IMG/VR virus record: IMGVR_UViG_3300018418_000050
Coordinates: 1-35,251 of that record
Strand: one strand, 5' to 3'
DNA from: a virus
Length of the DNA stretch: 35,251 nt
Shown here: piece after piece, positions 1,663-30,135 of the stretch
Layout of the letters: every line of letters starts with the position of its first letter
Numbering within the stretch: position 1 is the first letter of the stretch
Program-made: the position numbers and the translations under genes
The notes under the pieces: generated by a model
Seen by the model: only the letters and a program-made list of their open reading frames with translations
Database searches by the model: none
What the model was told of the DNA's origin: nothing

Positions 1663-1824
1663 TTATGTATCTTCCTCGTCGTCGTCTGGTAGTGTGTGAG
1701 TACAACTACCACATAATCCTGTTTTGCTTACATCACCACAATGACAGTCTTCCCCGCAAGATAAACATTTTTGTGTATCTTCAGGTATTTTAGGAGAGTG
1801 TATGTTTTGTGGATCTACATTCAT
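1663..1824 (-). CDS. Cys-rich mini-protein, possible zinc ribbon, 53 aa
   Basis: The 53-residue reading frame carries six Cys in CxxC-x3-CxC-x8-CxxC spacing (C20, C23, C27, C29, C38, C41) with nearby His, and ends in a run of acidic residues (DDDEED). This looks like a small metal-binding knuckle; no named family is recognised. There is no Shine-Dalgarno sequence. Instead a TAAATA box ends exactly 5 nt before the ATG, the late-promoter/leaderless arrangement described in the findings. It heads the reverse-strand cassette. Confidence 0.6.
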   Translation of the reverse strand: MNVDPQNIHSPKIPEDTQKCLSCGEDCHCGDVSKTGLCGSCTHTLPDDDEEDT

Positions 1825-1829
1825 ACTAA

Positions 1830-1837
1830 TATTTAGC
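1830..1837 (-). promoter_or_regulatory. Late-type promoter box (GCTAAATA) of the reverse cassette
   Basis: On the minus strand GCTAAATA is followed by TTAGT and then the ATG at 1824. T4 late promoters have TATAAATA at about -13 to -6, which would put +1 at the A of the ATG. The box departs from the consensus at its first two bases. Confidence 0.5.
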
Positions 1838-1846
1838 CATAAATGG

Positions 1847-1875
1847 TTGACATACTATACAGATGATGCTAAATT
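1847..1875 (+). promoter_or_regulatory. Sigma70-like promoter upstream of the peroxiredoxin gene
   Basis: TTGACA (1847-1852), a 17-nt spacer ending in TGC (extended -10), and TAAATT (1870-1875). The -35 is perfect and preceded by GG, as at the other promoters here; the -10 matches TATAAT at four of six positions. The hairpin with a T-run at 1879-1908 follows immediately. Confidence 0.55.
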
Positions 1876-1878
1876 AAT

Positions 1879-1908
1879 AATGTTAGTGCCTTACTAACAT
1901 TTTTTTTT
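1879..1908 (+). terminator. Intrinsic-terminator-like hairpin with T9 run
   Basis: A 9-bp stem is formed by AATGTTAGT (1879-1887) and ACTAACATT (1893-1901) around the loop GCCTT, running into nine T (1900-1908). This is a plus-strand rho-independent terminator shape. It lies between the promoter at 1847 and the peroxiredoxin start at 1925. It may stop transcription antisense to the reverse cassette or form a 5' hairpin on the peroxiredoxin mRNA. Confidence 0.6.
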
Positions 1909-1924
1909 GATTAGGAGTAAATTA

Positions 1925-2482
1925 ATGAAAGAAGGTATGCAACTACCTGAAGTTGATTTTAAGTATAGAGTTAGAACAGACGGGTTCCCTATCACTTATG
2001 TTAACAAAGACAATGGAGACGAAAATCCATTTGATTGGAAAACTGTCAATACAAAAGACATTTTTGATGGTAAAAGAATTGTAGTGTTTTCACTACCTGG
2101 TGCATTTACACCAACATGCTCAACCTACCAAGTTCCCGGTTTCGAAGATTTATATGACGATATTATTGCACAAAATGTAGATGACATTTATGTTATCAGT
2201 GTTAATGATACGTTTGTAATGCGTAAATGGATGATTGATCAAGAAGTTAAAAAGATCAAATTCATTCCAGACGGTACAGGCGAATTTACTGAAAAGATGG
2301 GTATGCTTGTATGCAAAGACAATCTAGGCTTTGGCAATCGTTCATGGCGCTATGCTATGGTTGTAAACGACGGAGTAGTTGAAAAAGCATTTGTTGAACC
2401 AGGACAAGAAGATAACTGTCCAACTGATCCATACGGTGAAACTTCCCCAGAAGCTATACTCGAATACTTGAAAGCAAGTTAA
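1925..2482 (+). CDS. Peroxiredoxin (Prx5-type)
   Basis: This 185-aa thiol peroxidase reduces H2O2 and alkyl hydroperoxides. The diagnostic motif PGAFTPTCSTYQVPGF contains the peroxidatic Cys (C65) with the family's Pro, Thr and Arg context. A second Cys lies near the C-terminus in EDNCPTDPYGETSPEA, where Prx5 proteins have DPF-x-x-SS. Length fits the family. The ATG at 1925 is chosen because AGGAG precedes it at the right distance; an in-frame TTG at 1907 would put that site inside the gene. The next gene starts on its stop codon (TAATG). A role in protecting the infected cell from oxidative stress is plausible inference. Confidence 0.9.
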   Translation: MKEGMQLPEVDFKYRVRTDGFPITYVNKDNGDENPFDWKTVNTKDIFDGKRIVVFSLPGAFTPTCSTYQVPGFEDLYDDIIAQNVDDIYVISVNDTFVMRKWMIDQEVKKIKFIPDGTGEFTEKMGMLVCKDNLGFGNRSWRYAMVVNDGVVEKAFVEPGQEDNCPTDPYGETSPEAILEYLKAS

Positions 2483-3057
2483 TGCAGATTGATTCAGTCT
2501 TTACTAATTTTATCGCCTACAAAGAATTAGGTGTATCAAATAGAGAAGCACTTATAGAGTTTTGTAAAGAGCGAGTAAAAGATAATGACGGAATTTTTGT
2601 TGACCCAGGTGAATCTGTTTTCCTCGAACTAGGAGGAAAGATTACACAGTTCTTAGACGAGCTACACACAAAGTTAGAATTTAGCGACGATTACGAACAG
2701 CGTATCAAACAGTTCTGGGTCAACAGTTTTTGCAATCAGTCAATTACAAGGATGCATAGGCATCCAGGGGCATTCTTTTCAGCTGTCTATTATCCACAGG
2801 CTGACGAAAATTCTAGCCCGCTAGGATTTACAAGTCCTAACCATGAACTAGCACATGTTATTAGACCCGAACACATAAAAAACTTTAACAGTTTTAACAG
2901 CGAACAATTATTCATTCCACCTAAGTCTGATTTACTTTTAGTATTTCCGTCTTGGATGTGGCACTTTGTTGCCCACAGTGAGGAAAGTAGCAACGCAAGA
3001 TTTAGTATTGCGTTTGATAGTGTAATTGTAAAAAAGGAAGTTAATGAAAGTTCATGA
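2482..3057 (+). CDS. Putative 2-oxoglutarate/Fe(II) oxygenase 1
   Basis: This 191-aa protein resembles the phage 2OG-Fe(II) oxygenase family related to TIGR02466 (jelly-roll dioxygenases using Fe(II), O2 and 2-oxoglutarate). Visible marks are MHRHPGAFFSAVYYP (His92/His94 area, strand after the metal site), FPSWMWHFVAHS (H161, distal metal His) and the ARFSIAFD strand with the 2OG-binding Arg. The substrate is unknown. It starts on the stop of the peroxiredoxin gene and overlaps the next oxygenase-like gene by 14 nt, so the three are co-translated. Confidence 0.75.
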   Translation: MQIDSVFTNFIAYKELGVSNREALIEFCKERVKDNDGIFVDPGESVFLELGGKITQFLDELHTKLEFSDDYEQRIKQFWVNSFCNQSITRMHRHPGAFFSAVYYPQADENSSPLGFTSPNHELAHVIRPEHIKNFNSFNSEQLFIPPKSDLLLVFPSWMWHFVAHSEESSNARFSIAFDSVIVKKEVNESS

Positions 3058-3784: not shown

Positions 3785-3861
3785 GCGGCTGTAGCTCAGC
3801 TGGATAGAGCATTGGTCTACGAAACCAAGGGTCAGGAGTTCGAATCTCTTCAGCCGCGCCA
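3785..3861 (+). tRNA. tRNA-Arg (anticodon ACG)
   Basis: A full cloverleaf of 77 nt. Acceptor GCGGCTG pairs with CAGCCGC, followed by G and an encoded CCA. The anticodon stem TTGGT/ACCAA encloses loop CTACGAA with ACG at 3819-3821. The T loop is GTTCGAATC. A34 needs host TadA to become inosine. It has its own promoter just upstream. Confidence 0.96.
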
Positions 3862-3886
3862 AACAGAGTCTTAAGGAGGACCTATT

Positions 3887-4624
3887 ATGGCAAAACGTAG
3901 ATTTAGAATTGAAGCTGGCAGGTACGGTGGAGAATCTGTTATTGGAGAAGTCAGCAAAGAATTTGTTGAATTTTTTATTGATAAAGATGAATCAGATCTT
4001 ATCGACACTCTTCAAAGTTATGAATGGGAAGATGAAGATATGGGTCTAGCAGATGCACCAAAACCTCGAGACGAATTTTATGCTTGGTACGAGTGTGATG
4101 AATTTGAACATCAAAACAATGCTTATGCTGACGGTACTTGGGTGTACACAGAAGTTCCAGCAGATGGTTCAGACGACTTTGCATATGACGATGACGTAGA
4201 ATTTGAACCTTATCATATGTATGGTAGAGAAGCATATCATAATGACGAAAGTTATGAAAGTGCTACTACACATGTAGAAGAAGCAGACCTAGATAAAGTT
4301 GTTCCTGTTCTTGCTTTCCATAGCGGAGAAAAAGGAGGCTTTGCATGTTGGTTTGTAGAAACCGATGGTGAAGATTTTAATCCTAAGAAATTAGCATTTA
4401 GTTCAATTGAAATGAACTTGTGTGAACTTGTAGAAAATGTTTGGTATGACAAGGTAGAACTAGAACCAAACTATGATTACAATGATACAACTGGCAAAGG
4501 GTACTATGCGTCTGTCGGATACTTTAATAAGAAGTGGCATGATAAACCTGAACAGTATACAGACGACATGCTTGAAGAAGAAGGATTTTGGGAAGGTTAC
4601 GAAGATAATCTTCTAGAAGAATAA
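3887..4624 (+). CDS. Acidic hypothetical protein, 245 aa
   Basis: The gene has a near-perfect ribosome site (TAAGGAGG). The product starts with a basic segment (MAKRRFRIEAGRYGGE) and is otherwise very acidic and rich in Tyr and Asp/Glu, with clusters such as EWEDEDMG and YDDDVEFEP. A central hydrophobic block (VVPVLAFHSGEKGGFACWF) may form the core. Its strong acidity is reminiscent of DNA-mimic or host-inhibitor proteins, but no motif supports that. It ends in a 12-nt convergent overlap with the reverse-strand gene 4613-5026. Confidence 0.8.
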   Translation: MAKRRFRIEAGRYGGESVIGEVSKEFVEFFIDKDESDLIDTLQSYEWEDEDMGLADAPKPRDEFYAWYECDEFEHQNNAYADGTWVYTEVPADGSDDFAYDDDVEFEPYHMYGREAYHNDESYESATTHVEEADLDKVVPVLAFHSGEKGGFACWFVETDGEDFNPKKLAFSSIEMNLCELVENVWYDKVELEPNYDYNDTTGKGYYASVGYFNKKWHDKPEQYTDDMLEEEGFWEGYEDNLLEE

Positions 4625-5026
4625 ATCTTTGATTTCAGTTTCTCTAGTAGACAGTTCTATAAAATTGCTTAGAAATACAAAGTGTTTTGATAGATCTGAA
4701 AACAAGTCAGTGTTAAGAGTATTGGATACTATATCATAAGATGATATACCTATATCTTGATAATATCTGCGAGATATGCCGTGTTTGGAGCCAAAGTCAG
4801 GAAAGACCCCTGATACAAAAAGACAAGTATCAGCAAGTTCTTTCGGACTTTGGTTGTTTAAGAAACTTTCAGCAAAAGAAGTGTTTGGCAAGAAATCCGG
4901 TTTCTCGACAAAATTTGCTAACAGCAATACAATATAAGATTCAATGTGTATAGGTAACGTGAATCCTGTATCGTTTTGCGTATGTTGGACAACGCCTCTA
5001 AAGGCACTAACATATTCGTCCTTCAT
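4613..5026 (-). CDS. Conserved bacterial-type protein of unknown function, 137 aa
   Basis: The 137-aa sequence resembles a widespread bacterial family of unknown function marked by a helix like ESYIVLLLANFVEKP, then DTCLFVSGVFPD, then YYQDIGISSYD. These blocks are visible here in the usual order, so I take this strand, not the overlapping plus-strand frame, as coding. It has no Shine-Dalgarno sequence, but GGTAAATA lies exactly 5 nt before the ATG (late box, probably leaderless). Its function is unknown. Confidence 0.7.
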   Translation of the reverse strand: MKDEYVSAFRGVVQHTQNDTGFTLPIHIESYIVLLLANFVEKPDFLPNTSFAESFLNNQSPKELADTCLFVSGVFPDFGSKHGISRRYYQDIGISSYDIVSNTLNTDLFSDLSKHFVFLSNFIELSTRETEIKDLFF

Positions 5027-5039
5027 ATAAATATTTACC
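5026..5039. promoter_or_regulatory. Overlapping divergent late promoters
   Basis: Plus strand: TATAAATA at 5026-5033, predicted +1 at 5039, giving a 14-nt leader with AAGGAG before the ATG at 5053. Minus strand: GGTAAATA at 5039-5032, predicted +1 at the A of the ATG at 5026. The two boxes share two bases within a TAAATATTTA palindrome. Confidence 0.65.
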
Positions 5040-5052
5040 TAAGGAGTACTTA

Positions 5053-5253
5053 ATGAGCGAAGAAACAGCTAATTTTACATTCAAAGCAGAGGACATCTTC
5101 ACAGACATCCCAGATGATCCTAATAATGTTAATATGACAATTCCACCTGAAATATTAGAAAAAATGGGGTGGAAAGAAGGCGATGTCTTATCAGTAGAAT
5201 GGTCAGAAGGTCAAATCGTATTATCTAAAAAAGAAGAAAATGTCGAAGGATAA
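5053..5253 (+). CDS. AbrB/MazE/SpoVT-type swapped-hairpin protein
   Basis: Sixty-six residues. The C-terminal ~40 residues match the AbrB/MazE fold: [20 protein letters not shown], then [13 protein letters not shown]. Such proteins are usually dimeric DNA-binding transition-state regulators or antitoxins. No toxin gene adjoins it, so a regulator role is likelier than an antitoxin role. It is led by a TATAAATA late promoter and overlaps the IF-1 gene by 14 nt. Confidence 0.8.
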
Positions 5254-5458
5254 AGGCCTAATAGAATTAGAGGGAGAAATTGTTAAAGTTCTCCCTAATA
5301 ATATGTTTACTGTAAAACTACAGAATGACCATGAAATTACCTGCTATACCTCAGGTAAAATGCGTCAATTCAAAATTAAAATGATCCAAGGTGATATGGT
5401 ACGTGTAGAAATGAGTCCATATGATCTCTCAAAAGGTAGAATTACCTTTAGACTTTAG
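5240..5458 (+). CDS. infA: Translation initiation factor IF-1
   Basis: Seventy-two residues, the normal length of bacterial IF-1, a single OB-fold (S1) domain binding the ribosomal A site with 30S during initiation. The core matches: [18 protein letters not shown], then [18 protein letters not shown], then [13 protein letters not shown]. The usual Arg/Lys-rich RNA-binding face is largely kept. It is co-translated with the AbrB-like protein upstream and carries a late promoter. Phage-borne IF-1 could shift initiation towards phage mRNAs, including leaderless ones (inference). Confidence 0.93.
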
Positions 5459-5459
5459 G

Positions 5460-5488
5460 TTGACACACCCTACTTTACATGCTATAAT
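5460..5488 (+). promoter_or_regulatory. Sigma70-like promoter for the sprT-methylase operon
   Basis: TTGACA (5460-5465), 17-nt spacer ending TGC (extended -10), TATAAT (5483-5488). It lies directly after the IF-1 stop and drives 5527-10450, the only promoter I see for that run. Confidence 0.85.
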
Positions 5489-5526
5489 AGTTGTATAACA
5501 TGTAAGCAAATAGAGGGATATTTCCT

Positions 5527-6003
5527 ATGATCTTTGTCAAAGGTGGCTCAGAACGTCAACGTGAACTAGCAATGTCAATGGCTGAGTTTTGTATCAAGAA
5601 ACTCATGCCTAGAATGAAATCTCTTGAAGTAAACATAGTCCTTAAAGATTTTGGAAAAGATTCAGCATATGGGTATGCATTACCTGCTGATGAAGCTGAT
5701 ACATCACGTCCACGTCAATTCGACGTAGAAATTAATAGAAAAGTTAAGATGCGTAGAATGCTTGAAACTGTTGCACATGAAATGGTACATGTAAAACAGT
5801 TTGCTAGAGGCGAATTATATGAATCAATAAACTTAGGTATGCATCGCTGGAAAGGCGAATGGTTATCTAATAACCGACAGTGTGTAAAAGACTACTGGGA
5901 CCATCCGTGGGAAATAGAAGCTCATGGGCGTGAAACCGGTTTGTTTATCCGTTGGGCTGAAGCAAACGATCTTGCAAAATATAAATGGACACAGTTAGAC
6001 TAA
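5527..6003 (+). CDS. SprT-like zinc metalloprotease
   Basis: This 158-aa protein carries the gluzincin motif HEMVH (H84-E85-x2-H88) inside VAHEMVHVKQFARG and a downstream PWEIEAHGRE that can supply the third Zn ligand. SprT/Spartan-type proteins cut DNA-protein crosslinks or other DNA-bound proteins. The N-terminus (residues 1-75) is a mixed alpha/beta region as in short SprT proteins; no Zn-ribbon tail is present. The ribosome site is GAGGGA. The next gene begins on its stop (TAATG), linking it to the helicase/methylase cassette. Confidence 0.8.
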   Translation: MIFVKGGSERQRELAMSMAEFCIKKLMPRMKSLEVNIVLKDFGKDSAYGYALPADEADTSRPRQFDVEINRKVKMRRMLETVAHEMVHVKQFARGELYESINLGMHRWKGEWLSNNRQCVKDYWDHPWEIEAHGRETGLFIRWAEANDLAKYKWTQLD

Positions 6004-8159
6004 TGCATACAATTTACAACTACACAACTAAGAGCCAAAGCAAAAAGTCAATCGCAACTATTGACGGTGAAGTCTTTAATGTACGTTTGAAAGTAGGCGA
6101 AACAATGCTTACCGCAGATGACCGTATCGAACAACAAGACGGCACATCTAATAGTGAACCTCTAAAAAAAGTTTTTGAACGTAAAGTTCCTGTGCATATT
6201 ACTGACAAAGTATTGCACAAAGCTCTGCAACGTAAAGGTTACATAAAAAGTAGAGATGACAAAAACCGTGAATGGTTTGATTTTCCAGAGTGTGAAACAG
6301 CAAACGAAGCATGTAATGTTGTTAAGTCTGTTTTAAACGAACTTATAAATGGTGTAGAAGCACTAGAAGATTGGGATAGTTTTCCTTATCAGCAAGACAT
6401 AATTGATTGGGCTGTAGAACGTAGTAAAGTATCTGATGACATGCTTATTAACGCTATTATGCGAGCAGGCAAATGCCGCATCAGTTACGAAATAGCACGA
6501 GAACAATCTGCAAAGAAGATCTTAGTAGTTACAGCAAAAGTAGGAGTAAACGATAGTTGGTCTGCTCTATTGCCAGGCGGCGAAGAAAACCACATTAACT
6601 ATTCAGGTTGGAAATATCATAACTATAAAAAAATTAAAAAATTAGAATTTACTGGTACTGATGTTGTTTTTGTAAGTTTGCAATTTATAAACAAACACTG
6701 GGATAATCCTAATCAGTTACTAAAGGACATACTAGCAACAGAATGGGATACAGTATTTTTTGATGAGCAGCATTATGCTACAACTACAGACAATACACAG
6801 CGTCTTTGGAAAAGTCTAAATTTTAAAAAGAAATACGAACTTAGTGGTACACCTTACAAGACAATGCTAAGTGGTAGATATAGTGCTGAAGATGTTTACA
6901 ACTTTGATTACATTGACGAACAAACAATACGTAAGCAACTACTTGACTTAAACAATGATGACTTTTTAACAGACCAGTTCCGTAAACGTGCAGACATAAA
7001 CTATGCTCTAGTTAATGTTCCAGACAAAGTGAAACAGTATCTAGGAGATGAAGGTTTTACATTTAGCAAATTGTTTGCTACAGAAGACGGCGCTTTTAAA
7101 AATGTAATGGGAGTAAACGAATTTATTAACTTCCTTGTACAAAACTTCAAGAAACCACCAAAGCGTTACAGTAAGGTAGCAGACAAACTTTGCCGTCATA
7201 CTCTTTTTGTATTGCCCGATAATGTAGAAGCAATTGGTTTATTTGTTAAGGCATTACAATCGCACCCGTTCTTTGGTAAACGTAAAATAATAAATGCAAG
7301 TGGTAAAGGTGTTAGAAACATACAGCAGGTTAAAGACTTGATTGCACGAAATGACCATGACGGCGGCGCTGGCACAATTACTATTACATGTGGTAGATTT
7401 CTAGAAGGTACTACTGTACCTGAATGGTGGAGTGTACACCAAATTAATAATGATAAGAGTGCAGCAGATTACTTCCAAGGTAGTTTCCGTTGCAAATCAC
7501 CTGCAGATGGCAAAGAAAGTGTTGTAGTATTTGACTATGCACCAGAGCGATTTGTAAGTGTAGTTTACAATTATTGTGAACGAGTTGCAGACTCAAGTGA
7601 TACAACTACAGAAAGCGTAATTAGCGAATGGTTAGATGTTAGTGATGTATATGACTATGATGGTAACACTTGGAATATGCTTACAGGCAAAGATGTTAGT
7701 AGTAAATTCCTTGCTGATATCGTTAATCATATCGATCGCATAGGTGCCTGTGTTAAGAAAGATATGATCAACGATGCGATATGTTTGTTGCTAGAGGGTA
7801 AACAAAAAGATTCTAATACTAACAAAGCAAGCACAGATATAAACAGTAATGACATTGAAGAAGGCACAAACAAAAAACGTAAATCAGGTACTAGCGAGAA
7901 GGGTGAACCTACAGAAAATGATCCAGTTAGTATTGCAATGTCACGTATTAGATACAGTTTGAAACAAATTTACAAGTTAGCAGATATTGCATGGGCAAAC
8001 GATTTTGAGCTAGAAAAGATACAAGATATAGCAAAGTTTGATAGTGATATTGTTGAACAAGTAACTGGCTTGACTGTAGACGAATGGAATAGTATAATGC
8101 CTAGTATTAACACAATAGGCGTCAATCGAGCATTAGGGCAATACTATGATTATCAATAA
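6003..8159 (+). CDS. SF2 helicase with N-terminal GIY-YIG/T5orf172-like domain
   Basis: 718 residues from the coupled ATG at 6003; an in-frame ATG at 5985 lies inside the previous gene. Helicase marks: Q-like FPYQQ (127-131), Walker A variant MRAGK (153-157, with Cys where GKT/S has Thr/Ser), DEQH (254-257), LSGTP (280-284) and motif VI QGSFR (492-496). Residues 1-95 resemble the T5orf172/MUG113 branch of GIY-YIG nucleases: IYNY near the start, KVGET (30-34), DRIEQQ with the Arg, DKVLHKAL (68-75) and REWFDF (89-94). That would make it a nuclease-helicase fusion, like R-M restriction subunits. The spacing from IYNY to KVG is longer than usual, so the nuclease call is tentative; the helicase call is firm. 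It overlaps the methylase homologue by 14 nt. Confidence 0.82.
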   Translation: MHTIYNYTTKSQSKKSIATIDGEVFNVRLKVGETMLTADDRIEQQDGTSNSEPLKKVFERKVPVHITDKVLHKALQRKGYIKSRDDKNREWFDFPECETANEACNVVKSVLNELINGVEALEDWDSFPYQQDIIDWAVERSKVSDDMLINAIMRAGKCRISYEIAREQSAKKILVVTAKVGVNDSWSALLPGGEENHINYSGWKYHNYKKIKKLEFTGTDVVFVSLQFINKHWDNPNQLLKDILATEWDTVFFDEQHYATTTDNTQRLWKSLNFKKKYELSGTPYKTMLSGRYSAEDVYNFDYIDEQTIRKQLLDLNNDDFLTDQFRKRADINYALVNVPDKVKQYLGDEGFTFSKLFATEDGAFKNVMGVNEFINFLVQNFKKPPKRYSKVADKLCRHTLFVLPDNVEAIGLFVKALQSHPFFGKRKIINASGKGVRNIQQVKDLIARNDHDGGAGTITITCGRFLEGTTVPEWWSVHQINNDKSAADYFQGSFRCKSPADGKESVVVFDYAPERFVSVVYNYCERVADSSDTTTESVISEWLDVSDVYDYDGNTWNMLTGKDVSSKFLADIVNHIDRIGACVKKDMINDAICLLLEGKQKDSNTNKASTDINSNDIEEGTNKKRKSGTSEKGEPTENDPVSIAMSRIRYSLKQIYKLADIAWANDFELEKIQDIAKFDSDIVEQVTGLTVDEWNSIMPSINTIGVNRALGQYYDYQ

Positions 8160-10450: not shown

Positions 10451-10451
10451 G

Positions 10452-10480
10452 TTGACAACCTTAGCACTATTTGCTATAAT
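10452..10480 (+). promoter_or_regulatory. Sigma70-like promoter of the long small-gene operon
   Basis: TTGACA (10452-10457), 17-nt spacer ending TTTGC (extended -10), TATAAT (10475-10480). From TTTGC onward the leader is the same as at 18311 for 31 nt, then differs slightly up to the ribosome site AGAGG. Confidence 0.88.
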
Positions 10481-10514
10481 ATATACATAAATTAGGCAAA
10501 TGAGAGGCACAAAA

Positions 10515-11321
10515 ATGTCATTACCAGATCCAAACACTCTTGATTGGGGTGCAATGAGCAAAGCTGAATTTAAGCGTATGGAACTAGCGTATGAATTGCA
10601 AGACGAAGACGATCGTCCTATTAGTCGTAAACCGCTTCCGCTTAAAACTGTAAAACTTACAGATGCACTTGCTGTTGCATATGCGGCTTATCGTATTAAC
10701 AAGGAAACTTACATCAAAGATATTCGTCGGTTTGATGAAGCGCCAACACAATTTCCTAACAAAGATCTTGTGCGTTATTACTATGATAAAAAGAACGGTG
10801 TTGACTGGGTTCCAACTGACTTCCCTACATTTGAGCCTACTGAAGAAGACTATGTCAAGGTAGAAGAAGCACGTAAGTGGATGAAACGATATGTAATGCT
10901 TGGTTTAGCTGACCTTGATGATTTTAAACGTGACATGATTGAGGAACTTAGCAAAGAAGAAGTACCTCTTAAAGGTATGGGTCGAATTGCATTTGCTCCA
11001 GAATTTATCAAACGTGATCAACACGAAAGTGGACTAAAGAAAGAGATTCGTATAGAGTACCGTGATAGCAAACACATTTCTCCTATAGGTGCTGCTGTTG
11101 AAGGCGTTATAAAGTTTTTAGATAAACGCTACAGTGCAAGGTGGGAAAGTTTTAACTATACTGGTGTAATTGACGGTAACCTAGTTTCGTTTATGAACAA
11201 GTTTGATCACGAAGTTGGGTCCATGAAAAGGATTAAAGCAAAAGTAAAAGATCATACAAAAAACCGTTTGTTTAGTGCCGATGAGACTAGACTTAATTAT
11301 GTAAAACTTTATAAGGTATAA
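10515..11321 (+). CDS. Hypothetical phage protein, 268 aa
   Basis: ATG 10515 is preferred because AGAGG lies 7-8 nt upstream; an in-frame ATG at 10500 would overlap that site. The product is soluble and mixed-charge, with a Pro-rich early segment (SRKPLPLKTVKL), a helical centre (YVKVEEARKWMKRYV) and a C-terminal half rich in Lys/Arg. I see no known catalytic motif. It is the first gene of the operon from 10452, whose leader is shared with the alarmone-hydrolase operon. Confidence 0.8.
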   Translation: MSLPDPNTLDWGAMSKAEFKRMELAYELQDEDDRPISRKPLPLKTVKLTDALAVAYAAYRINKETYIKDIRRFDEAPTQFPNKDLVRYYYDKKNGVDWVPTDFPTFEPTEEDYVKVEEARKWMKRYVMLGLADLDDFKRDMIEELSKEEVPLKGMGRIAFAPEFIKRDQHESGLKKEIRIEYRDSKHISPIGAAVEGVIKFLDKRYSARWESFNYTGVIDGNLVSFMNKFDHEVGSMKRIKAKVKDHTKNRLFSADETRLNYVKLYKV

Positions 11322-11323
11322 CT

Positions 11324-22684: not shown

Positions 22685-22690
22685 TAAATA
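22683..22690 (+). promoter_or_regulatory. Late promoter box GATAAATA (leaderless spacing)
   Basis: GATAAATA, then CTTAC (5 nt), then ATG 22696. The T4 rule puts +1 at the A of the ATG. No Shine-Dalgarno sequence is present. Confidence 0.65.
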
Positions 22691-22695
22691 CTTAC

Positions 22696-23829
22696 ATGAA
22701 GAAGCCAGATCCTAATAAAGTCCGTATTGCTGTAGAAGGACTACCTATTTTAGCAGAAGTTGTTGATGCTTTAGCAAGCATAGACAACACTCCTGACATG
22801 TCAAAACTAGCAAATAACAGCCTAAGTGGAGACTTAATTCAAGGAGGTACAATATCTAAGTTTAAAAGCACCGGTATTAAAGACGAGTCAACTAGACTTG
22901 TAGTGTTTGTAAATGACGATGGAATACTAACTGATACAATAGACGTAGAAACACTAGTAGGCGACACAAATGTTTCTGGTAATTTACATGTAGACGGCGA
23001 AGTTTATGCAAAAAAACTTCATGTTGACGAAGTTACAGCAGACGTTAGAAATGAAAGATCTGGACCACTTGAATTCAATGATGCAGATGGTAACATCTAT
23101 AATAAAGGATTATTGTGGGTGCAAAAAGGACAACCTACAAAACAGTTTGTGTACAGACCTAATCCAGATAGACTTTGGAGTAGTGATCCAATAGATTTAC
23201 ATGCAGATGCTGCATACTTTGTAAACGGCAACTATGTTCTAAGCAAAGATTCACTAGGCCCTGATATTAAAACAAGTAGCCTTAGAGAAGTAGGTACACT
23301 TCATAAGTTAAATGTTAGAGGCAATGTTTCTTTTGGTCAACATCTATTTTGGAACAGCGATGCTGATAGGCTAGGTATTGGTACTGAAGCACCTAATGGT
23401 GCTGTTGGTATAATGGGCTTTGATTCTGAGTTTGTTATTGATATAGATCAACCAGAGATCAAATTAGGAACATATACAACACATGACCTAGAAATTATAA
23501 CTGACAATACAACTAGAATTAGTGTAAGTGCTAATGGTAAAATACACCTAGGTAACAAGAACAGTGACTCAGCAAGGGTTACAGTACATGGTAAATTAGG
23601 TGTTGGTGTAAACACAATTTCAGACGACAGCGATCTTGCTGTTGCAGGCCCGATAAAATTTGAAAACAAAAAAATGCAAGTAGGTTCCGGTTCACCCACT
23701 AGTGGACAATATCGTAAAGGCGATATAGTTTGGAATGATGACCCAAAGCCAACAGGCTATATAGGTTGGGTATGCATTTTGGAAGGCACTCCAGGAGAAT
23801 GGAAGCCTTTCGGTCAAATCAGCTCATAA
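22696..23829 (+). CDS. Tail-fibre/virion-type structural protein, 377 aa
   Basis: The N-terminal ~50 residues resemble an attachment region; then come repeated beta motifs: GNLHVDGEVYAKKLHVDEV, HKLNVRGNVSFGQHLFWNSD, LGIGTEAPNG (226-235), ISVSANGKIHLGN and VTVHGKLGVG. Repeats of the NGNIYV/RIGIGT type are typical of trimeric fibre shafts in marine phages. The end (GDIVWNDDPKPTGYIGWVCI) resembles a small C-terminal head of such fibres. It is led by a late promoter, as expected for a virion protein. Exact position in the particle is unknown. Confidence 0.8.
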   Translation: MKKPDPNKVRIAVEGLPILAEVVDALASIDNTPDMSKLANNSLSGDLIQGGTISKFKSTGIKDESTRLVVFVNDDGILTDTIDVETLVGDTNVSGNLHVDGEVYAKKLHVDEVTADVRNERSGPLEFNDADGNIYNKGLLWVQKGQPTKQFVYRPNPDRLWSSDPIDLHADAAYFVNGNYVLSKDSLGPDIKTSSLREVGTLHKLNVRGNVSFGQHLFWNSDADRLGIGTEAPNGAVGIMGFDSEFVIDIDQPEIKLGTYTTHDLEIITDNTTRISVSANGKIHLGNKNSDSARVTVHGKLGVGVNTISDDSDLAVAGPIKFENKKMQVGSGSPTSGQYRKGDIVWNDDPKPTGYIGWVCILEGTPGEWKPFGQISS

Positions 23830-23858: not shown

Positions 23859-23866
23859 TATAAATA
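23859..23866 (+). promoter_or_regulatory. Late promoter box TATAAATA (leaderless spacing)
   Basis: A perfect T4 late box, then TTAGT (5 nt), then ATG 23872. No Shine-Dalgarno sequence lies between box and start. Confidence 0.75.
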
Positions 23867-23871
23867 TTAGT

Positions 23872-24183
23872 ATGACTAACTTTGACTTATTAAAAAAACA
23901 AACTAAAAAACAGGCACTTATTTGGAAAATAATAGGCAGTGTACTTCCCATGACAGGCTTTATAGCTCTAGCGATTTCGTATTGGCTAGGAGCTCATGAA
24001 ACATATTATTGGCTTATTTTAACAGGCACTTGTACTTTTATGTTCGTCGCCGCAATTTGGTGGTGGTGGGCAATAGATAAAATTTCCTCTGTTGTTGAAT
24101 TAATGTCTCAAGCGGCTGAAAAATTTAAAGAAGTTAAGCAAGACATTACTGTCTTAAAAGAAGATATAAACAACAATAAATAA
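23872..24183 (+). CDS. Two-TM protein with C-terminal helix, holin candidate
   Basis: 103 residues. A basic N-terminus (MTNFDLLKKQTKKQALIWK) is followed by two TM helices (IIGSVLPMTGFIALAISYWL and WLILTGTCTFMFVAAIWWWW) and a charged C-terminal helix (SQAAEKFKEVKQDITVLKED). Size, two helices and late expression would fit a class II holin, but the same plan occurs in other phage membrane proteins. There is no ribosome site: the late box is 5 nt before the ATG. Confidence 0.7.
   Translation: MTNFDLLKKQTKKQALIWKIIGSVLPMTGFIALAISYWLGAHETYYWLILTGTCTFMFVAAIWWWWAIDKISSVVELMSQAAEKFKEVKQDITVLKEDINNNK
24175..24182 (+). promoter_or_regulatory. Late promoter box AATAAATA (leaderless spacing)
   Basis: AATAAATA spans the end of the previous gene; ATTGT (5 nt) and ATG 24188 follow. 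No Shine-Dalgarno sequence is seen. Confidence 0.6.
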
Positions 24184-24187
24184 TTGT

Positions 24188-24781
24188 ATGTATGTATTTG
24201 GTAACGGTGAAAGCCGTTCTCGGCTTGATATTGACTCTCTGTTTGGAACTAAAATAGGGTGCAATGCCATTATGCGTGATTATAAAATGGATCATCTTAT
24301 CTGTGTTGACAAACGAATGGTTGAAGAATCTATCAACGCTGGTATAAATGAGGAAACAAAAATTTACACAAGAAGCGATTGGTATCCTAGATTCAAACAA
24401 CACAAAAACATAAGATTACTTCCTAATTTACCTTATGAAGGAAATGAGAGATGGGACGAACCATTTCAATGGGGTAGTGGTCCTTATGCTGTTCTTTTAG
24501 GAGCTCTAAAGAGCAAAAAAGAAACAGTTCATTTAATAGGCTTTGATATGTACAGTGACACTAGCACAGTTAATAACATATACAAAGATACACGAAACTA
24601 TGATAGAGCAGATAAGAGAGCCGTTGATCCTAGATATTGGATACACCAAATAGGAAAAGTATTCCAATGTTTTCCTAAAACTAAATTTATAGTCTATAAT
24701 AAACATATAAAACTAAAAGAATCCTGGATTTATCCTAACGTAATGGTTGACACGATAAGTAACATATCGTATAATAGTTAA
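24188..24781 (+). CDS. DUF115/MptE-like or glycosyltransferase-like protein, 197 aa
   Basis: The N-terminus MYVFGNGESRSRLDIDSL, then GCNAIMRDYKMDHLICVD and later SGPYAVLLGAL...VHLIGFDMYS, follow the Rossmann-like pattern of DUF115/MptE-type proteins (6-hydroxymethylpterin diphosphokinase-like, also motility-accessory and sugar-transfer proteins). Function in phages is unknown; with a glycosyltransferase and a phosphomannomutase-like gene nearby, a glycan role is possible, and with QueD next door a pterin link is another. The late box 5 nt before the ATG suggests a leaderless mRNA. Confidence 0.7.
   Translation: MYVFGNGESRSRLDIDSLFGTKIGCNAIMRDYKMDHLICVDKRMVEESINAGINEETKIYTRSDWYPRFKQHKNIRLLPNLPYEGNERWDEPFQWGSGPYAVLLGALKSKKETVHLIGFDMYSDTSTVNNIYKDTRNYDRADKRAVDPRYWIHQIGKVFQCFPKTKFIVYNKHIKLKESWIYPNVMVDTISNISYNS
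24747..24775 (+). promoter_or_regulatory. Sigma70-like promoter for the queD operon
   Basis: TTGACA (24747-24752), 17-nt spacer, TATAAT (24770-24775), GG before the -35. It lies in the last codons of the previous gene. The ~62-nt leader contains a TGGCG/CGCCA pairing (24797-24801 with 24821-24825). Confidence 0.85.
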
Positions 24782-26125: not shown

Positions 26126-26820
26126 AATATATATTTGATGTAGACGGAACATTGACTCCTAGCAGAGGTAGAATGGACTATGACTTTAGAGCATTCTTTA
26201 ATGCGTTCTCTATGGTCAATGACGTATATCTTGTAACAGGTAGTGATAAACCTAAAACTATAGAACAGATTACAGAACCAACTTATAACTTGTGCAAACG
26301 TGTTTATCAATGTAACGGTAATGATGTTTGGGAAGGCAAAGTTAATATTAAACACTCCGAATGGACATTACCAGAAGATGCACACGAATGGTTGTCGATT
26401 GAGCTCACTAGTAGTGCTTTTCCGTTAAGAACTGGGCTACATTTTGAACATAGACACGGAATGACAAATTACAGCGTAGTTGGGCGCAATGCTACACTGG
26501 GCGAACGCAAATTGTATGTAAAATATGATCTCGAACATAACGAAAGAAATAAAATAGCTGGAAAGTTTAATTTGCTCTTTCCAGAGTTAGAAGCAAGACC
26601 TGGAGGAGAAACAGGTATTGATATTGGACTCAAGGGTAGTGATAAAAGTCAAATACTACACGACTTTGATATAAATGATGAATTACACTTTTTTGGTGAT
26701 AGGATGGATAAAGCAGGAAATGATTATCCTCTTAAAAAACAGATCATTGACAGTGACTTAGGTATGTGTTATAATGTTAAAGATTATAAAGAAACGTGGC
26801 AATTACTAGAAGAAATATAA
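26101..26820 (+). CDS. HAD-superfamily hydrolase of eukaryotic phosphomannomutase type
   Basis: 239 residues from ATG 26101. HAD motif I is FDVDGTLT (Asp13 nucleophile, Asp15 acid/base); VTGSDKP is motif II. The C-terminal part shows GGETGIDIGLKGSDKSQIL and FFGDRMDKAGNDYPL (197-211), very close to the GWDK and FFGD-x-x-x-x-GGND signatures of eukaryotic-type PMM, which interconverts mannose-6-P and mannose-1-P. ERKLYVKYD fits the PMM cap. Bacteria normally use an unrelated PMM fold, so this is notable. It may supply GDP-mannose for the glycosyltransferase next door. Confidence 0.78.
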   Translation: MGSRKLAIKYIFDVDGTLTPSRGRMDYDFRAFFNAFSMVNDVYLVTGSDKPKTIEQITEPTYNLCKRVYQCNGNDVWEGKVNIKHSEWTLPEDAHEWLSIELTSSAFPLRTGLHFEHRHGMTNYSVVGRNATLGERKLYVKYDLEHNERNKIAGKFNLLFPELEARPGGETGIDIGLKGSDKSQILHDFDINDELHFFGDRMDKAGNDYPLKKQIIDSDLGMCYNVKDYKETWQLLEEI

Positions 26821-27929
26821 TGGATTTAAAATTTACAACAGCAGGTGACTTTTTGAAAGCACAACAAAAACGCATAGGTTTTGCATGCAAATACATGTAT
26901 CCTGATCAAACACAGAAGAAGAAATTGCTTGAGGAGATACAGCGACCACTAAATACTCGTAGCACAACAGTTGCGTGGCTCAATAGGCAAACACGTGATG
27001 TTGCTGAAGAACGCTTGTGGGACATTATGGTCCACAACATAGCGTCATACAGAAGGTTGATTGAATATGTTGGAAGTCTTCCCCCTCAACTTAGAATGGT
27101 CAGATTGGGTAGTGATGTACTTCCTGTTTATACCGAGCCTACTTGGTGTTATTTTTGGCGCAAGCCGGATGTGGTTGCATACTGTGAAAAAGAATTCGCA
27201 AAAGTTGGAGAAACCGCAAGAGCCCTTGACGTCCGACTATCAATGCATCCGGGACAATTTACTGTACTTGCCTCGGATAATCCGGAAATTGTTGAGAGGA
27301 GCATAGAAGAATTTGAATATCACACCGATGTCTTGCGCTGGATGGGATACGGCCGCACCTTCCAAGACTTTAAATGCAACGTACACATATCGGGTCGAAA
27401 AGGTCCACAAGGCATCATCGACGTCTTACCGAGACTCTCGCCAGAAGCGCGAAACGCAATCACAATCGAAAACGACGAAATGTCTTGGGGCATTGACGCA
27501 AGCCTCGAACTTGAAAAGCATGTCGCTCTCGTATTGGACATACACCACCACTGGGTTGCTAGTGGAGAATACATATCGCCCACCGACGATAGATTTTTAC
27601 GTATAGTTGACAGTTGGCGTGGAGTAAGACCTGTTATTCATTACTCAGTTTCACGCGAAGATCTACTAGTAGACCATGATGATAACTCTTTACCTAATAT
27701 GGATTCGCTATTAGAGCAAGGCTTTAAGAAGCAAAAACTTAGAGCACATTCTGACTTTATGTGGAATAATGCTGTTAACGACTGGGCATTAGAATTTTTA
27801 GATTACGCAGACATTATGGTCGAGTCTAAGTCTAAGAATCTTGCTAGTATTGACCTATACAAATATGGTCTAGCAACAGAAGATTATAACTCAATGGCAA
27901 AAGACTTCGCAGGAAAAATATATGCATAA
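26820..27929 (+). CDS. uvsE: UV-damage endonuclease UvsE/UvdE
   Basis: 369 residues. A TIM-barrel endonuclease that nicks 5' of UV photoproducts and starts alternative excision repair. Seen: IGFACKYM near the N-terminus, RLGSDVLPVY, LSMHPGQF (140-147), IENDE (216-220) and DIHHHW (240-245), which carry the metal-binding His, Glu and Asp. It begins on the stop of the preceding gene (TAATG). Codons from about 27060 to 27600 are much richer in C/G at the third position than the rest of the gene, suggesting a recombined segment or an overlapping constraint. Confidence 0.93.
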   Translation: MDLKFTTAGDFLKAQQKRIGFACKYMYPDQTQKKKLLEEIQRPLNTRSTTVAWLNRQTRDVAEERLWDIMVHNIASYRRLIEYVGSLPPQLRMVRLGSDVLPVYTEPTWCYFWRKPDVVAYCEKEFAKVGETARALDVRLSMHPGQFTVLASDNPEIVERSIEEFEYHTDVLRWMGYGRTFQDFKCNVHISGRKGPQGIIDVLPRLSPEARNAITIENDEMSWGIDASLELEKHVALVLDIHHHWVASGEYISPTDDRFLRIVDSWRGVRPVIHYSVSREDLLVDHDDNSLPNMDSLLEQGFKKQKLRAHSDFMWNNAVNDWALEFLDYADIMVESKSKNLASIDLYKYGLATEDYNSMAKDFAGKIYA

Positions 27930-27932
27930 ATA
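27925..27932 (+). promoter_or_regulatory. Late promoter box CATAAATA (leaderless spacing)
   Basis: CATAAATA spans the uvsE stop; GTTTT (5 nt) and ATG 27938 follow. No Shine-Dalgarno sequence is present. The surrounding ATGCATAAA...TTTATGCAT is also a short inverted repeat. Confidence 0.65.
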
Positions 27933-27937
27933 GTTTT

Positions 27938-28651
27938 ATGCATGAACAAATATATAATTTTTTCCAAGATCTAAGTACAACTTACAATCCAGAAACAATT
28001 TTTGCAGAATATGCAAAAGGTGAGCCTACTCCATTTTATATGATAGACAACTTTTTGCCACCATGGTTGTACAATACTATTATAAATTCATTTGAAGATA
28101 TCCCGGAAGAACGCTATAAAATTTTTGCTAATCAGTATAGCGAACGAAGAGAATGTAGAAACTTTGCTGAGGCGCCTTTACTACAAACCCTTGCAAATAG
28201 TTTTAACAGTAAATTGTTTGTAGATTGGTTAGAAGTTTGTACTGGTACAGAATCTCTTGTTCCAGATCCTCACTTCTTAGGCGGTGGGTTTTGTAGAAGT
28301 AGCAGAAATACATCATTAGGATTACATACAGACTTTAATTGGAATAACGGTCTTAAATTAAATAGACAAAAGAATGCCATACTCTATCTTAACAAAGATT
28401 GGAAAGAAGAGTGGAATGGACATTTAGAATTTTGGAACAATGAAAGAACAGAATGTGTTAAAAAAATTGCACCAAAGCCTAATAGATTAATTTTTTGGGA
28501 CTATGGTTATGATTTAGTTCATGGGCATCCCGAACCTATAGAATGTCCAAAAACAATAACTAGAGATAGTTTAATACTATTCTACTATACTTCAAATGCA
28601 ACATATGAGCATGATCCAAGACGTTCACAATTCTATGAGCAAGCAGAGTAA
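27938..28651 (+). CDS. 2-oxoglutarate/Fe(II) oxygenase 4 (prolyl-4-hydroxylase-like)
   Basis: 237 residues. The P4Hc-type core is clear: GLHTDFN with the HxD pair (H130, D132), ILYLNKDWKEEWNGHLEF, RLIFWDYGYDLVHGHPEPI (distal H195) and TRDSLILFYYT with the 2OG-binding Arg. This differs from the TIGR02466-like oxygenases elsewhere in the window. Such genes often sit among virion genes of marine T4-like phages; hydroxylation of a virion or host protein is possible. The late box 5 nt before the ATG implies a leaderless late mRNA. Confidence 0.87.
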   Translation: MHEQIYNFFQDLSTTYNPETIFAEYAKGEPTPFYMIDNFLPPWLYNTIINSFEDIPEERYKIFANQYSERRECRNFAEAPLLQTLANSFNSKLFVDWLEVCTGTESLVPDPHFLGGGFCRSSRNTSLGLHTDFNWNNGLKLNRQKNAILYLNKDWKEEWNGHLEFWNNERTECVKKIAPKPNRLIFWDYGYDLVHGHPEPIECPKTITRDSLILFYYTSNATYEHDPRRSQFYEQAE

Positions 28652-28654
28652 ATA
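28647..28654 (+). promoter_or_regulatory. Late promoter box AGTAAATA (leadered)
   Basis: AGTAAATA overlaps the previous stop; predicted +1 at 28660 gives a 12-nt leader with CGGAG before ATG 28672. Confidence 0.5.
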
Positions 28655-29197: not shown

Positions 29198-29229
29198 AAT
29201 TATTCTCCATAATAAAATATTTGCTTGTA

Positions 29230-29243
29230 TATTTACATAAATA
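29230..29243. promoter_or_regulatory. Overlapping divergent late promoters
   Basis: Plus strand: CATAAATA (29236-29243), predicted +1 at 29249, leader with TAGGAG before ATG 29264. Minus strand: TGTAAATA (29237-29230), leader with GGAG before ATG 29197. The boxes share two bases, the same arrangement as at 5026-5039. Confidence 0.6.
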
Positions 29244-29263
29244 CTCTATATAGGAGACTAATT

Positions 29264-29419
29264 ATGGTAGAAAGTTTAAAACTAAAAAAGATTGACGGAC
29301 TTAGAATAGATAAGAAACCTTTTCAACCTATTAAACTAAAGCCCGAGCAAAAACTACCTGAAGAAAAAAGGTCGATGAAAACAACTGAAAATACTAGACC
29401 AGGAGGATATAAGTTCTAA
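29264..29419 (+). CDS. Small basic protein, 51 aa
   Basis: ATG 29264 with TAGGAG upstream. The product is short, Lys/Pro-rich and probably disordered (MVESLKLKKIDGLRIDKKPF, KPEQKLPEEKRS, ending RPGGYKF). Not recognised. The next gene starts on its stop (TAATG). Late promoter upstream. Confidence 0.65.
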   Translation: MVESLKLKKIDGLRIDKKPFQPIKLKPEQKLPEEKRSMKTTENTRPGGYKF

Positions 29420-29583
29420 TGAAAAAATGGATTATAGACAGACTAGGCGAAAGAACTTCGCTTGATGGCGCTGTACTTATTGGTGCAGGTGTAGCATTTC
29501 TTATCTTCAAACCAATTGCTAGTTTAGTTGCATACGGTGCTATTGCATACGGTGCATGGACTATCTACAAAAAAGAAGATTAA
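29419..29583 (+). CDS. Small membrane protein, 54 aa
   Basis: Coupled by TAATG to the previous gene, with AGGAGG 13-18 nt upstream. The product has a basic, amphipathic start (MKKWIIDRLGERTSLDG) and a long hydrophobic Ala/Gly-rich segment (AVLIGAGVAFLIFKPIASLV, then AYGAIAYGAWTIY), probably two short helices, and a charged end. Not recognised. Confidence 0.6.
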   Translation: MKKWIIDRLGERTSLDGAVLIGAGVAFLIFKPIASLVAYGAIAYGAWTIYKKED

Positions 29584-29586
29584 TAA

Positions 29587-29838
29587 ATGTCTAGAGAGTA
29601 TATATTGACTGTTGAAACATCTGAAAATACAAGAGAAGTATCTGAAGGTGTTACTAAAGAACTGTATAATGTTACTATTACTAAAGTAGAAACAGGACAA
29701 ACTATCTCAATAGTTGATGTTGTAAGCACTTATGATAGAGATGACTGGTGCCAAACTGTATTTGAACATGCAAAAGAAGGATTAGATCACGAAGACGGTC
29801 CTAGTTGTTGCTATGTTAATGCAAGTTACGTAGACTAA
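29587..29838 (+). CDS. Hypothetical protein, 83 aa
   Basis: It starts 3 nt after the previous stop. A small beta-rich acidic protein (YILTVETSENTREVSEGV, YNVTITKVETGQTISIVD) with a Cys-Cys pair near the end (GPSCCYVNASYVD). Not recognised. It ends in a 4-nt convergent overlap with the reverse-strand gene. Confidence 0.68.
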   Translation: MSREYILTVETSENTREVSEGVTKELYNVTITKVETGQTISIVDVVSTYDRDDWCQTVFEHAKEGLDHEDGPSCCYVNASYVD

Positions 29839-30122
29839 AGTTTACTAATAGGGAGATCAGAACTAGCAGAAAATTTCCATTTCTGTTTTTGTTCTACTCC
29901 CTTTTTTTGTGCAAATTTTTTGCTATCACAATCATTACACACATGAAAATAATTGTTGCTTAACCGCTTGGCATCCATCTTGCCTCTAGGTCTTTCAAAC
30001 TCGTTATCACAGTTATCACATCTTAGTAACACGTAGGTCTTTTTGCGTGTGTAAGGGTGCGTACGACCTAATTTTGACGTTCTCACATGTCTTGTTTGTA
30101 CAACAAATTCTTTTATGAACAT
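29835..30122 (-). CDS. Zinc-ribbon/HNH-like small protein, 95 aa
   Basis: Two CxxC knuckles are seen, CDNCDNEFERPRG and HVCNDCDSKKFAQKKG, separated by ~20 residues, with a basic, Thr/Arg-rich N-terminus. The layout resembles the zinc-ribbon parts of phage HNH or restriction-related proteins, but I see no HNH catalytic His-Asn-His set. DNA or RNA binding is likely. The start lacks a Shine-Dalgarno sequence; AATAAATA lies 5 nt upstream. Confidence 0.7.
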   Translation of the reverse strand: MFIKEFVVQTRHVRTSKLGRTHPYTRKKTYVLLRCDNCDNEFERPRGKMDAKRLSNNYFHVCNDCDSKKFAQKKGVEQKQKWKFSASSDLPISKL

Positions 30123-30127
30123 AATTA

Positions 30128-30135
30128 TATTTATT
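30128..30135 (-). promoter_or_regulatory. Late promoter box AATAAATA (leaderless spacing)
   Basis: On the minus strand AATAAATA, then TAATT (5 nt), then ATG at 30122. No Shine-Dalgarno sequence. Confidence 0.6.

Follow-up and report, generated by a model that had tools for sequence, protein, structure and literature searches.

Why do seven genes on a single stretch of viral DNA each carry the hexamer TAAATA exactly 5 nucleotides (nt) ahead of their ATG? The stretch is IMG/VR virus record IMGVR_UViG_3300018418_000050, positions 1 to 35,251, analysed over its whole length of 35,251 nt and referred to below as the window. TAAATA is the core of the late-promoter box of phage T4, TATAAATA; according to PMC2988020, T4 late boxes are 8 bp long, their numbering begins at -13, and roughly one helical turn separates them from the transcription start, +1, downstream. 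By this numbering, a box followed by five nucleotides and an ATG (box-N5-ATG) would place +1 on the A of the ATG. From the sequence patterns described here, we consider it probable that a late promoter of the gp55 type has been fused to the start codon of these genes, which would then give rise to leaderless or nearly leaderless late mRNAs. In the mechanism we propose, TAAATA (usually ATAAATA) would act as a -10-like late-promoter box that is read by host RNA polymerase together with a phage gp55-type sigma factor. In a first class of genes the box would lie 4-5 nt ahead of the ATG, so that, in T4 numbering, +1 falls on or beside the first base of that codon; transcripts would begin at or beside the AUG and be translated leaderless, without a Shine-Dalgarno (SD) sequence. 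In a second class the box would lie about 16-28 nt upstream and the resulting leader would carry the SD sequence. Throughout, spacing denotes the number of nt between TAAATA and the start codon. The seven boxes and the genes that they precede, with lengths in amino acids (aa), are as follows.

1830..1835, minus strand: TAAATA box preceded by C, 5 nt ahead of the ATG at 1824
1663..1824, minus strand: predicted leaderless gene, 53 aa, first in the minus-strand cluster 1824-756, without a family match
5032..5037, minus strand: TAAATA box preceded by G, 5 nt ahead of the ATG at 5026
4613..5026, minus strand: predicted leaderless gene, 137 aa, of unknown function, a lone minus-strand gene
22685..22690, plus strand: ATAAATA box, 5 nt ahead of the ATG at 22696
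22696..23829, plus strand: predicted leaderless gene, 377 aa, tail-fibre-like (PHROG short tail fiber match, 8e-7)
23861..23866, plus strand: TAAATA of a TATAAATA box (23859-23866), 5 nt ahead of the ATG at 23872
23872..24183, plus strand: predicted leaderless gene, 103 aa, weakly membrane/holin-like (Pfam Phage_holin_3_6 below the cut-off)
24177..24182, plus strand: ATAAATA box overlapping the 3' end of the preceding gene, 5 nt ahead of the ATG at 24188
24188..24781, plus strand: predicted leaderless gene, 197 aa, phrog_30607 (unknown function)
27927..27932, plus strand: ATAAATA box, 5 nt ahead of the ATG at 27938
27938..28651, plus strand: predicted leaderless gene, 237 aa, 2OG-Fe(II) oxygenase (PF13640, 1e-14)
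30128..30133, minus strand: ATAAATA box, 5 nt ahead of the ATG at 30122
29835..30122, minus strand: predicted leaderless gene, 95 aa, with CxxC pairs, a lone minus-strand gene

The seven sites reported by the first-pass annotation were all present: TAAATA-N5-ATG matched at 22685-22698, 23861-23874, 24177-24190 and 27927-27940 on the plus strand and at 1822-1835, 5024-5037 and 30120-30133 on the minus strand, and nowhere else in the window. In 100 dinucleotide shuffles of the window, which has a G+C content of 37%, the pattern occurred 1.18 times on average and 4 times at most, and no shuffle reached seven. When both strands were scanned at spacings of 0-40, 7 of the 28 TAAATA boxes had an ATG at spacing 5; the second-highest spacing was 9 with 4 boxes, and no other spacing exceeded this number. 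Three of the four spacing-9 cases are the second ATG of genes 1824, 24188 and 27938. In these genes a second, out-of-frame ATG directly follows the spacing-5 start (ATGAATG, ATGTATG and ATGCATG, respectively), and 10 of 14 displayed sequences of the 24188 family have ATGTATG. The complete TATAAATA box was found at one of the seven sites only, whereas the TAAATA core was found at all seven, preceded by A in five cases and by C and G in one each. None of the seven genes had an in-frame downstream start with an SD-like site within its first 30 codons. Furthermore, three of the seven (1824, 5026 and 30122) head minus-strand units that lie among plus-strand genes.

The same spacing stood out beyond the window. 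The species of the window phage is also represented by two longer contigs, G001 (99.6 kb, of which the first 37,777 bases were counted) and G002 (152 kb, counted in full). Together they had 187 boxes; nine genes of at least 50 aa lay at spacing 5 and nine at spacing 19, and every other spacing up to 30 accounted for three genes at most. Across 81 loci from relatives (1.25 Mb, a count that leaves out 12 near-identical loci, L001-L007 and L014-L018, and keeps other duplicates), 161 of 1,505 boxes lay at spacing 5, and a second hump was seen at 17-24. The 14 other hexamers of the same composition gave at most 13 cases at spacing 5 in these loci; AAATAT, AATATA, AATAAT and ATAAAT peaked at 3-6, spacings at which they share bases with the TAAATA box. 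A scan of all hexamers by position that was blind to the box, run on 1,171 gene starts and keeping L003 of the near-identical loci, ranked TAAATA at spacing 5 first, with 93 cases seen and 7.5 expected. Thus, the genome-wide spacing histogram that had been proposed as a check shows, for the window phage and its relatives, a sharp peak at 5 and a second, leadered class at about 16-28.

Most of the relative loci had been fetched with a spacing-5 gene as bait, which counts against taking the raw peak at face value, and orthologues were therefore collapsed into families. Three families supplied 153 of the 205 raw spacing-5 cases. Counted as BLAST families in 84 sequences, HTVC008M included, there were 34 at spacing 5 and 21 at spacing 4, compared to 3-13 at each spacing of 0-3 and 6-13. 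When one random member was drawn per family, the window lineage (a set without G008, L010-L013 and HTVC008M) gave 8.6 cases at spacing 5 and 7.5 at spacing 4 among 653 families, and the isolates HTVC008M, Mosig and Melnitz together gave 10.5 among 350 families at spacing 5; T4, S-PM2, Syn9 and P-SSM2 together gave 0.2 among 650 families at spacing 5 and 3-7 at each spacing of 20-27. Permuted hexamers of the same composition were not enriched at spacing 5 in the family-level test, and no spacing-5 gene was found in the distant contig G008. Spacing 5 is therefore prominent in the pelagimyophage-type isolates, and in the window lineage spacing 4 stands out as well. The claim that the constant spacing is unlikely to be due to chance is borne out by the shuffles, the permuted hexamers and the family-level counts alike. 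The wording "exactly 5" was right in that 5 is the commonest value but proved too strict, given spacing 4 in the window lineage and 6-8 in some genes for gp2. A spacing-4 match at G002 41983, in an endolysin-like gene, begins inside the domain and is probably due to chance.

The box-N5-ATG arrangement occurs in two distant phage lineages. In the Pelagibacter phage HTVC008M, 12 of 186 TAAATA boxes lay at spacing 5: of 14 pattern matches, 12 opened at least 50 codons, and all 12 coincide with the starts of coding sequences in GenBank. For seven of the 12 genes the annotation names a virion or DNA-end protein (DNA end protector, head closure, tail tube cap, baseplate wedge, wedge initiator, tail completion or tape measure). 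Counting ATAAATA boxes at spacing 5 that open at least 50 codons, we found 9/45 in HTVC008M, 6/56 in Mosig, 3/42 in Melnitz and 6/39 in the window phage's own species, compared to 0/65 in T4, 1/59 in S-PM2, 0/38 in Syn9, 1/52 in P-SSM2 (200 kb), 0/121 in Atu_ph07 (480 kb) and 0/28 in Phosso (200 kb). The corresponding counts for TAAATA were 1/171 in S-PM2, 0/132 in Syn9, 3/183 in P-SSM2, 2/355 in Atu_ph07 and 0/53 in Phosso. Raw pattern counts, given here with their controls, were 14 and 4 in HTVC008M, 11 and 3 in Mosig, 5 and 3 in Melnitz, 10 and 5 in T4, 5 and 3 in S-PM2, 3 and 3 in Syn9, 6 and 6 in P-SSM2, 15 and 9 in Atu_ph07 and 3 and 2 in Phosso; for four further jumbo phages, covered by raw counts alone, they were 6 and 11 (121Q), 3 and 3 (Vibrio 2.275.O), 24 and 19 (SCTP-2) and 15 and 12 (PA5oct). 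Of 250 called gene starts in T4, none fell into the spacing-4 or spacing-5 class. An alphaproteobacterial host as the cause of the arrangement was not supported: Cr30, phiM12 and phiM9 each had no TAAATA-N5-ATG, though another late box is possible in these phages.

Five leadered genes of the window provide the contrast to the seven.

5028..5033, plus strand: TAAATA of a TATAAATA box (5026-5033), 19 nt ahead of the ATG at 5053, with AAGGAG; leadered, MazE/AbrB-like
28649..28654, plus strand: TAAATA box, 17 nt ahead of the ATG at 28672, with GGAG; leadered
29238..29243, plus strand: ATAAATA box, 20 nt ahead of the ATG at 29264, with AGGAG; leadered
30161..30166, plus strand: ATAAATA box, 16 nt ahead of the ATG at 30183, with AAGGAG; leadered, Fe-S biogenesis type
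29230..29235, minus strand: TAAATA box, 32 nt ahead of the ATG at 29197 (minus strand), with GGAG; leadered, the fifth contrast gene

For the first four of these, the more distant box and the SD site had already been pointed out by the first-pass annotation, and both were found. Among distinct genes, SD-like sites accompanied 24/29 boxes at spacing 17, 24/27 at 19, 48/58 at 20 and 36/41 at 21, and an SD-like site between -16 and -4 was seen in only 1 of 125 distinct spacing-5 genes. The lack of SD sites at spacing 5, which had also been noted for the seven window genes and is indeed observed there, is partly geometric because the box fills positions -11 to -6; as a mark of leaderless mRNAs it is to that extent forced by the position of the box. 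A simple gene caller run on 11 window-lineage records gave 36 genes at spacing 5, none with an SD site and nine with an upstream neighbour on the opposite strand; 110 genes at spacing 14-28, 96 with an SD site and 35 with such a neighbour; and 1,056 box-free genes, 505 with an SD site and 108 with such a neighbour. In HTVC008M and Mosig, the upstream neighbour lay on the opposite strand for 5 of 17 spacing-5 genes and 12 of 306 box-free genes, so that the three groups sum to 14/53 for spacing 5 versus 120/1,362 for box-free genes. This enrichment at strand switches is what would be predicted if the boxes act as promoters. Within the species of the window phage, very large virion genes and a gp6-type wedge gene are among the leadered genes, and gp25 and a tail-fibre-like gene are among those at spacing 5.

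The spacing-5 class also shows a preference for ATG as the start codon. Among 132 distinct codons at spacing 5 that open at least 80 codons (G008 excluded), 128 were ATG, with one TTG, two GTG and one CTG; the ratio of ATG to other starts was 22:22 at spacings 9-13 and 199:15 for leadered genes with an SD site. An in-frame downstream start with an SD-like site was present in just 1 of 132 distinct spacing-5 genes.

We also determined whether homologues keep the class of their window gene. Homologues were collected by tblastn in the 81 non-identical loci with the box ignored, and for each one the start was taken to be the in-frame ATG closest to where the alignment begins; those lacking an aligned N-terminus or a nearby ATG, and those at a contig edge, do not count as readable. 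The 30122 gene had 73 homologues, 72 of them readable, with 56 at spacing 5, 11 at spacing 4, five without a box and none leadered. Of the 75 homologues of the 24188 gene, 73 were readable (52 at spacing 5, 21 without a box, none leadered), and of the 65 homologues of the 22696 gene only 23 were readable (21 at spacing 5, two leadered). The leadered controls behaved in the reciprocal manner: 67/75 homologues of 28672 lay at 14-30 and eight at spacing 4, 50/58 readable homologues of 30183 lay at 14-30 and eight had no box, and all eight homologues of 29264 were leadered; the single homologue of 5053 had no box. From the genes with enough homologues, class membership is thus mostly kept, the 23872 gene being the exception. 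The proposal of two promoter classes, leadered and mostly SD-bearing versus N5 and SD-free, is upheld to this extent, with three of the seven genes, and likewise three leadered genes, having homologues that mostly keep the class. The eight spacing-4 members of the 28672 family may represent class switches within one gene family.

For some genes the arrangement is shared across lineages, though not universally. An IMG/VR scan for gp2 (DNA end protector) with the HTVC008M/Mosig/Melnitz alignment was evaluated for the best 80 of 584 relatives, of which L362 was dropped because it had no readable ATG; of the 79 readable genes, 61 were at spacing 5 (35 distinct upstream sequences), nine at spacing 6, three at 7, six at 8 and none elsewhere. 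Spacing 5 is common to HTVC008M, Mosig and Melnitz for gp2, to HTVC008M and Mosig for gp3, and to HTVC008M and the window species for gp25 (25% identity). A CHASE2 cyclase gene has spacing 5 in HTVC008M and Melnitz and spacing 4 in its window-lineage orthologues (46-66% identity); the first open reading frame (ORF) of the window, at 31-678, is the C-terminal part of this CHASE2-adenylate/guanylate cyclase, which is complete in G001 at 9267-11318 and shares 46-65% identity with the HTVC008M and Melnitz proteins. In the cyanophages the box of such orthologues lies further upstream, at 24-25 nt for gp4 in S-PM2, Syn9 and P-SSM2, at 24 (S-PM2) or 15 (P-SSM2) for gp3 and at 10 for P-SSM2 gp25; T4 gp4 has a box and an SD site, and no TAAATA was found within 45 nt of gp4 in Mosig and Melnitz. 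Melnitz gp3 has a TAAATA-N5-ATG that is out of frame and 17 nt upstream of the gp3 start, whereas in HTVC008M and Mosig the spacing-5 box starts gp3 directly.

Is the machinery for such promoters present? A homologue of the gp55-type late sigma factor was detected in a same-species contig (phrog_12791, 7e-79; phrog_234, 7e-22; PDB gp55, 1.3e-4), with no Pfam match. G001 and G002 also encode homologues of gp43, gp44, gp46, gp47, gp25, gp6 and PhoH, and the T4 portal model PF07230 had no match in the window lineage. The closest isolates by DNA polymerase are the jumbo phages Phosso of Sinorhizobium (50.5%) and Atu_ph07 of Agrobacterium (46.3%). We read the window phage, from these gene comparisons, as a probable member of the T4 superfamily that is distant from T4, cyanophages and pelagimyophages. 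As a clue to the host, its peroxiredoxin had best matches spread over mixed phyla.

The window also encodes a translation initiation factor, which the first-pass annotation had mentioned alongside the leaderless genes.

5240..5458, plus strand: translation initiation factor IF-1 gene (PF01176, 1e-24)

Of 23 IMG/VR records searched, many of them fragments, eight contain IF-1, as does Phosso, where 200 kb held no spacing-5 site opening 50 codons; none was found in HTVC008M, Mosig and Melnitz, which all have spacing-5 genes. Because of this distribution IF-1 is not a required part of the arrangement, and its role as a necessary partner of leaderless translation was rejected. An IF-3 is annotated in Atu_ph07.

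Several results weigh against the proposed fusion of late promoter and start codon. Homologue backing of the seven sites is uneven: it is good for 30122, 24188 and 22696, weak for 27938 (10 homologues, three readable, one at spacing 4 and two without a box) and lacking for 23872, whose arrangement is not conserved (41 homologues, 29 readable, two at spacing 5, two at 4, five at 9-13, two at 14-30, seven beyond 30 and 11 without a box), and tblastn found no homologue of the 1824 and 5026 genes in the 81 loci. Orthologues in the isolates disagree in places, with Melnitz gp25 leadered with an SD site and the box of Mosig gp48 at 24. Three of 225 TAAATA boxes in T4 lie at spacing 5, though none of its 65 ATAAATA boxes does. 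Neither gp33 nor gp45, which are both annotated in HTVC008M, was detected in G001 and G002 by tblastn with HTVC008M queries, a search in which most HTVC008M virion genes likewise went unmatched and gp44 was detected. At position -1, T or C preceded 78 of 82 distinct spacing-5 start codons, compared to 750 of 1,709 start codons without a box; leadered genes at spacing 20 had it in 40 of 52 cases, however, and the leadered promoters had no clear initiator signature at box+5/+6 (124/265 at box+5); a pyrimidine at -1 therefore does not mark +1 by itself. An unstructured 5' end as a mark of leaderless mRNAs was rejected, the first 40 nt showing no difference from leadered genes (-2.88 vs -2.77 kcal/mol). 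Finally, boxes are also found at spacings 4 and 6-8, so the position of +1 may vary by a few nt.

This last point leads to an alternative that we regard as unlikely, though it deserves attention, in which the boxes are late promoters but +1 lies a few nt off the ATG, giving either a very short leader or a start inside the ORF with the true codon downstream. The 21 families at spacing 4, the 18 of 79 gp2 genes at 6-8 and the missing initiator signature would fit such an offset; spacing 5 is nevertheless the commonest value, downstream in-frame starts with an SD site are nearly absent from the spacing-5 genes, and the annotated starts of HTVC008M agree with the ATGs, though gene finders depend on sequence too. 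A signal in RNA is a further alternative, with transcripts that begin further upstream and the motif acting in translation as an AU-rich, S1-type or other non-SD element. The motif does occupy the usual SD position, and in the window lineage 18 of 36 spacing-5 genes lie less than 15 nt from their upstream neighbour. Yet the same hexamer is found 16-28 nt upstream of SD-bearing genes, it agrees with the late box of T4, spacing-5 genes share with the leadered ones an enrichment at strand switches, and hexamers of the same composition show no enrichment at spacing 5, which together make this explanation very improbable. We give hardly any credence to chance in an AT-rich genome, or to a few inherited leaderless genes that are counted repeatedly: the G+C content of 37% and the share of three families in the raw cases would favour it, but the shuffles, permuted hexamers, family-level counts and class conservation argue against it, and the peak is absent from T4 (35% G+C) and from 480 kb of Atu_ph07 (37% G+C). 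The leaderless reading of the box-N5-ATG genes is thus supported, with transcript starts and late timing carried over from T4: by this analogy gp55 would use the TAAATA box, +1 would fall directly after the five-nucleotide spacer, the genes would be late and their translation would begin at a 5'-terminal AUG.

Other features of the window and its relatives were observed alongside. At 5026-5037 of the window a plus-strand late box (5028-5033) overlaps a minus-strand one (5037-5032); the former belongs to the leadered gene 5053 (plus) and the latter to the predicted leaderless gene 5026 (minus). A similarly tight divergent pair occurs in HTVC008M at 18916 (minus) and 18943 (plus), where both genes have spacing 5. 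The region 3785-17684 contains seven tRNA genes (Arg, Trp, Glu, Ser, Gly, Thr and Ala), and a UvdE-type UV endonuclease gene (PF03851) lies at 26796-27929. In G002, positions 120932-135949 (L105 932-15949, minus strand) form a single ORF of 5,005 aa that adjoins baseplate genes.

How does this arrangement compare to known systems? The promoters resemble T4 late promoters (TATAAATA, served by gp55, gp33 and gp45) in their -10-like box, the gp55 homologue, their use on both strands and the leadered SD class, but T4 has no spacing-5 class. Cyanophage late promoters, NATAAATA, are described for S-PM2 and Syn9 in the consulted part of PMC2984593. They have the same box, and HTVC008M, Mosig and Melnitz are classed in Kyanoviridae, as are the cyanophages; S-PM2, Syn9 and 200 kb of P-SSM2 nevertheless lack the spacing-5 peak. 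Phosso and Atu_ph07 are kin of the window phage and have TAAATA boxes in the leadered range but, unlike the window phage, no ATAAATA at spacing 5. Single leaderless phage mRNAs exist, such as that of lambda cI. As in the bacterial leaderless mRNAs of Mycobacterium, Sinorhizobium and others, +1 would here be the A of an AUG start; in contrast to those and to lambda cI, the leaderless genes here would form a set brought about by a late sigma system that the phage encodes, and several of them code for virion parts.

In the literature searched, which left most subscription papers outside its range, we found no report of leaderless T4-type late mRNAs. For pelagimyophages, the part of PMC7029224 consulted reports that late-promoter prediction was unsuccessful. 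For Melnitz, fifteen late promoters were predicted by a box search, and in the text seen of that paper "leaderless" occurs in the reference list only (PMC9004378). The paper on phage AR9 states, in the part seen, that phage transcripts are often leaderless, citing ribosome work in E. coli, and reports leaders of 26-491 nt for its own transcripts (PMC5312081).

T4 late transcription is a textbook system, and the T4 and cyanophage genomes examined have late boxes only at leadered distances. If true, a leaderless late class conserved in marine phages would be a new layout of the T4 late system, and leaderless boxes may help explain why late-promoter prediction failed in pelagimyophages. The reading gives exact predictions of the transcript start for each gene, and for two of the isolates, HTVC008M and Mosig, the host is in culture. 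As a tentative suggestion, which we hold to be rather less likely than the fusion itself, two distant marine groups of the T4 superfamily, the pelagimyophage-type phages and a jumbo-like lineage near Phosso and Atu_ph07, may independently have fused the gp55 late promoter to the start codons of a group of late genes; translation of part of the virion programme would then proceed, late in infection, via a 5'-terminal AUG, either as an adaptation to the translation machinery of the hosts or as a switch to a state of the ribosome not used by SD messages. The comparison also raises the question why gp3 and other orthologues are leadered in cyanophages and would be leaderless in pelagimyophage-type isolates. 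If true, the arrangement would moreover allow better calling of start codons in the genomes of marine phages.

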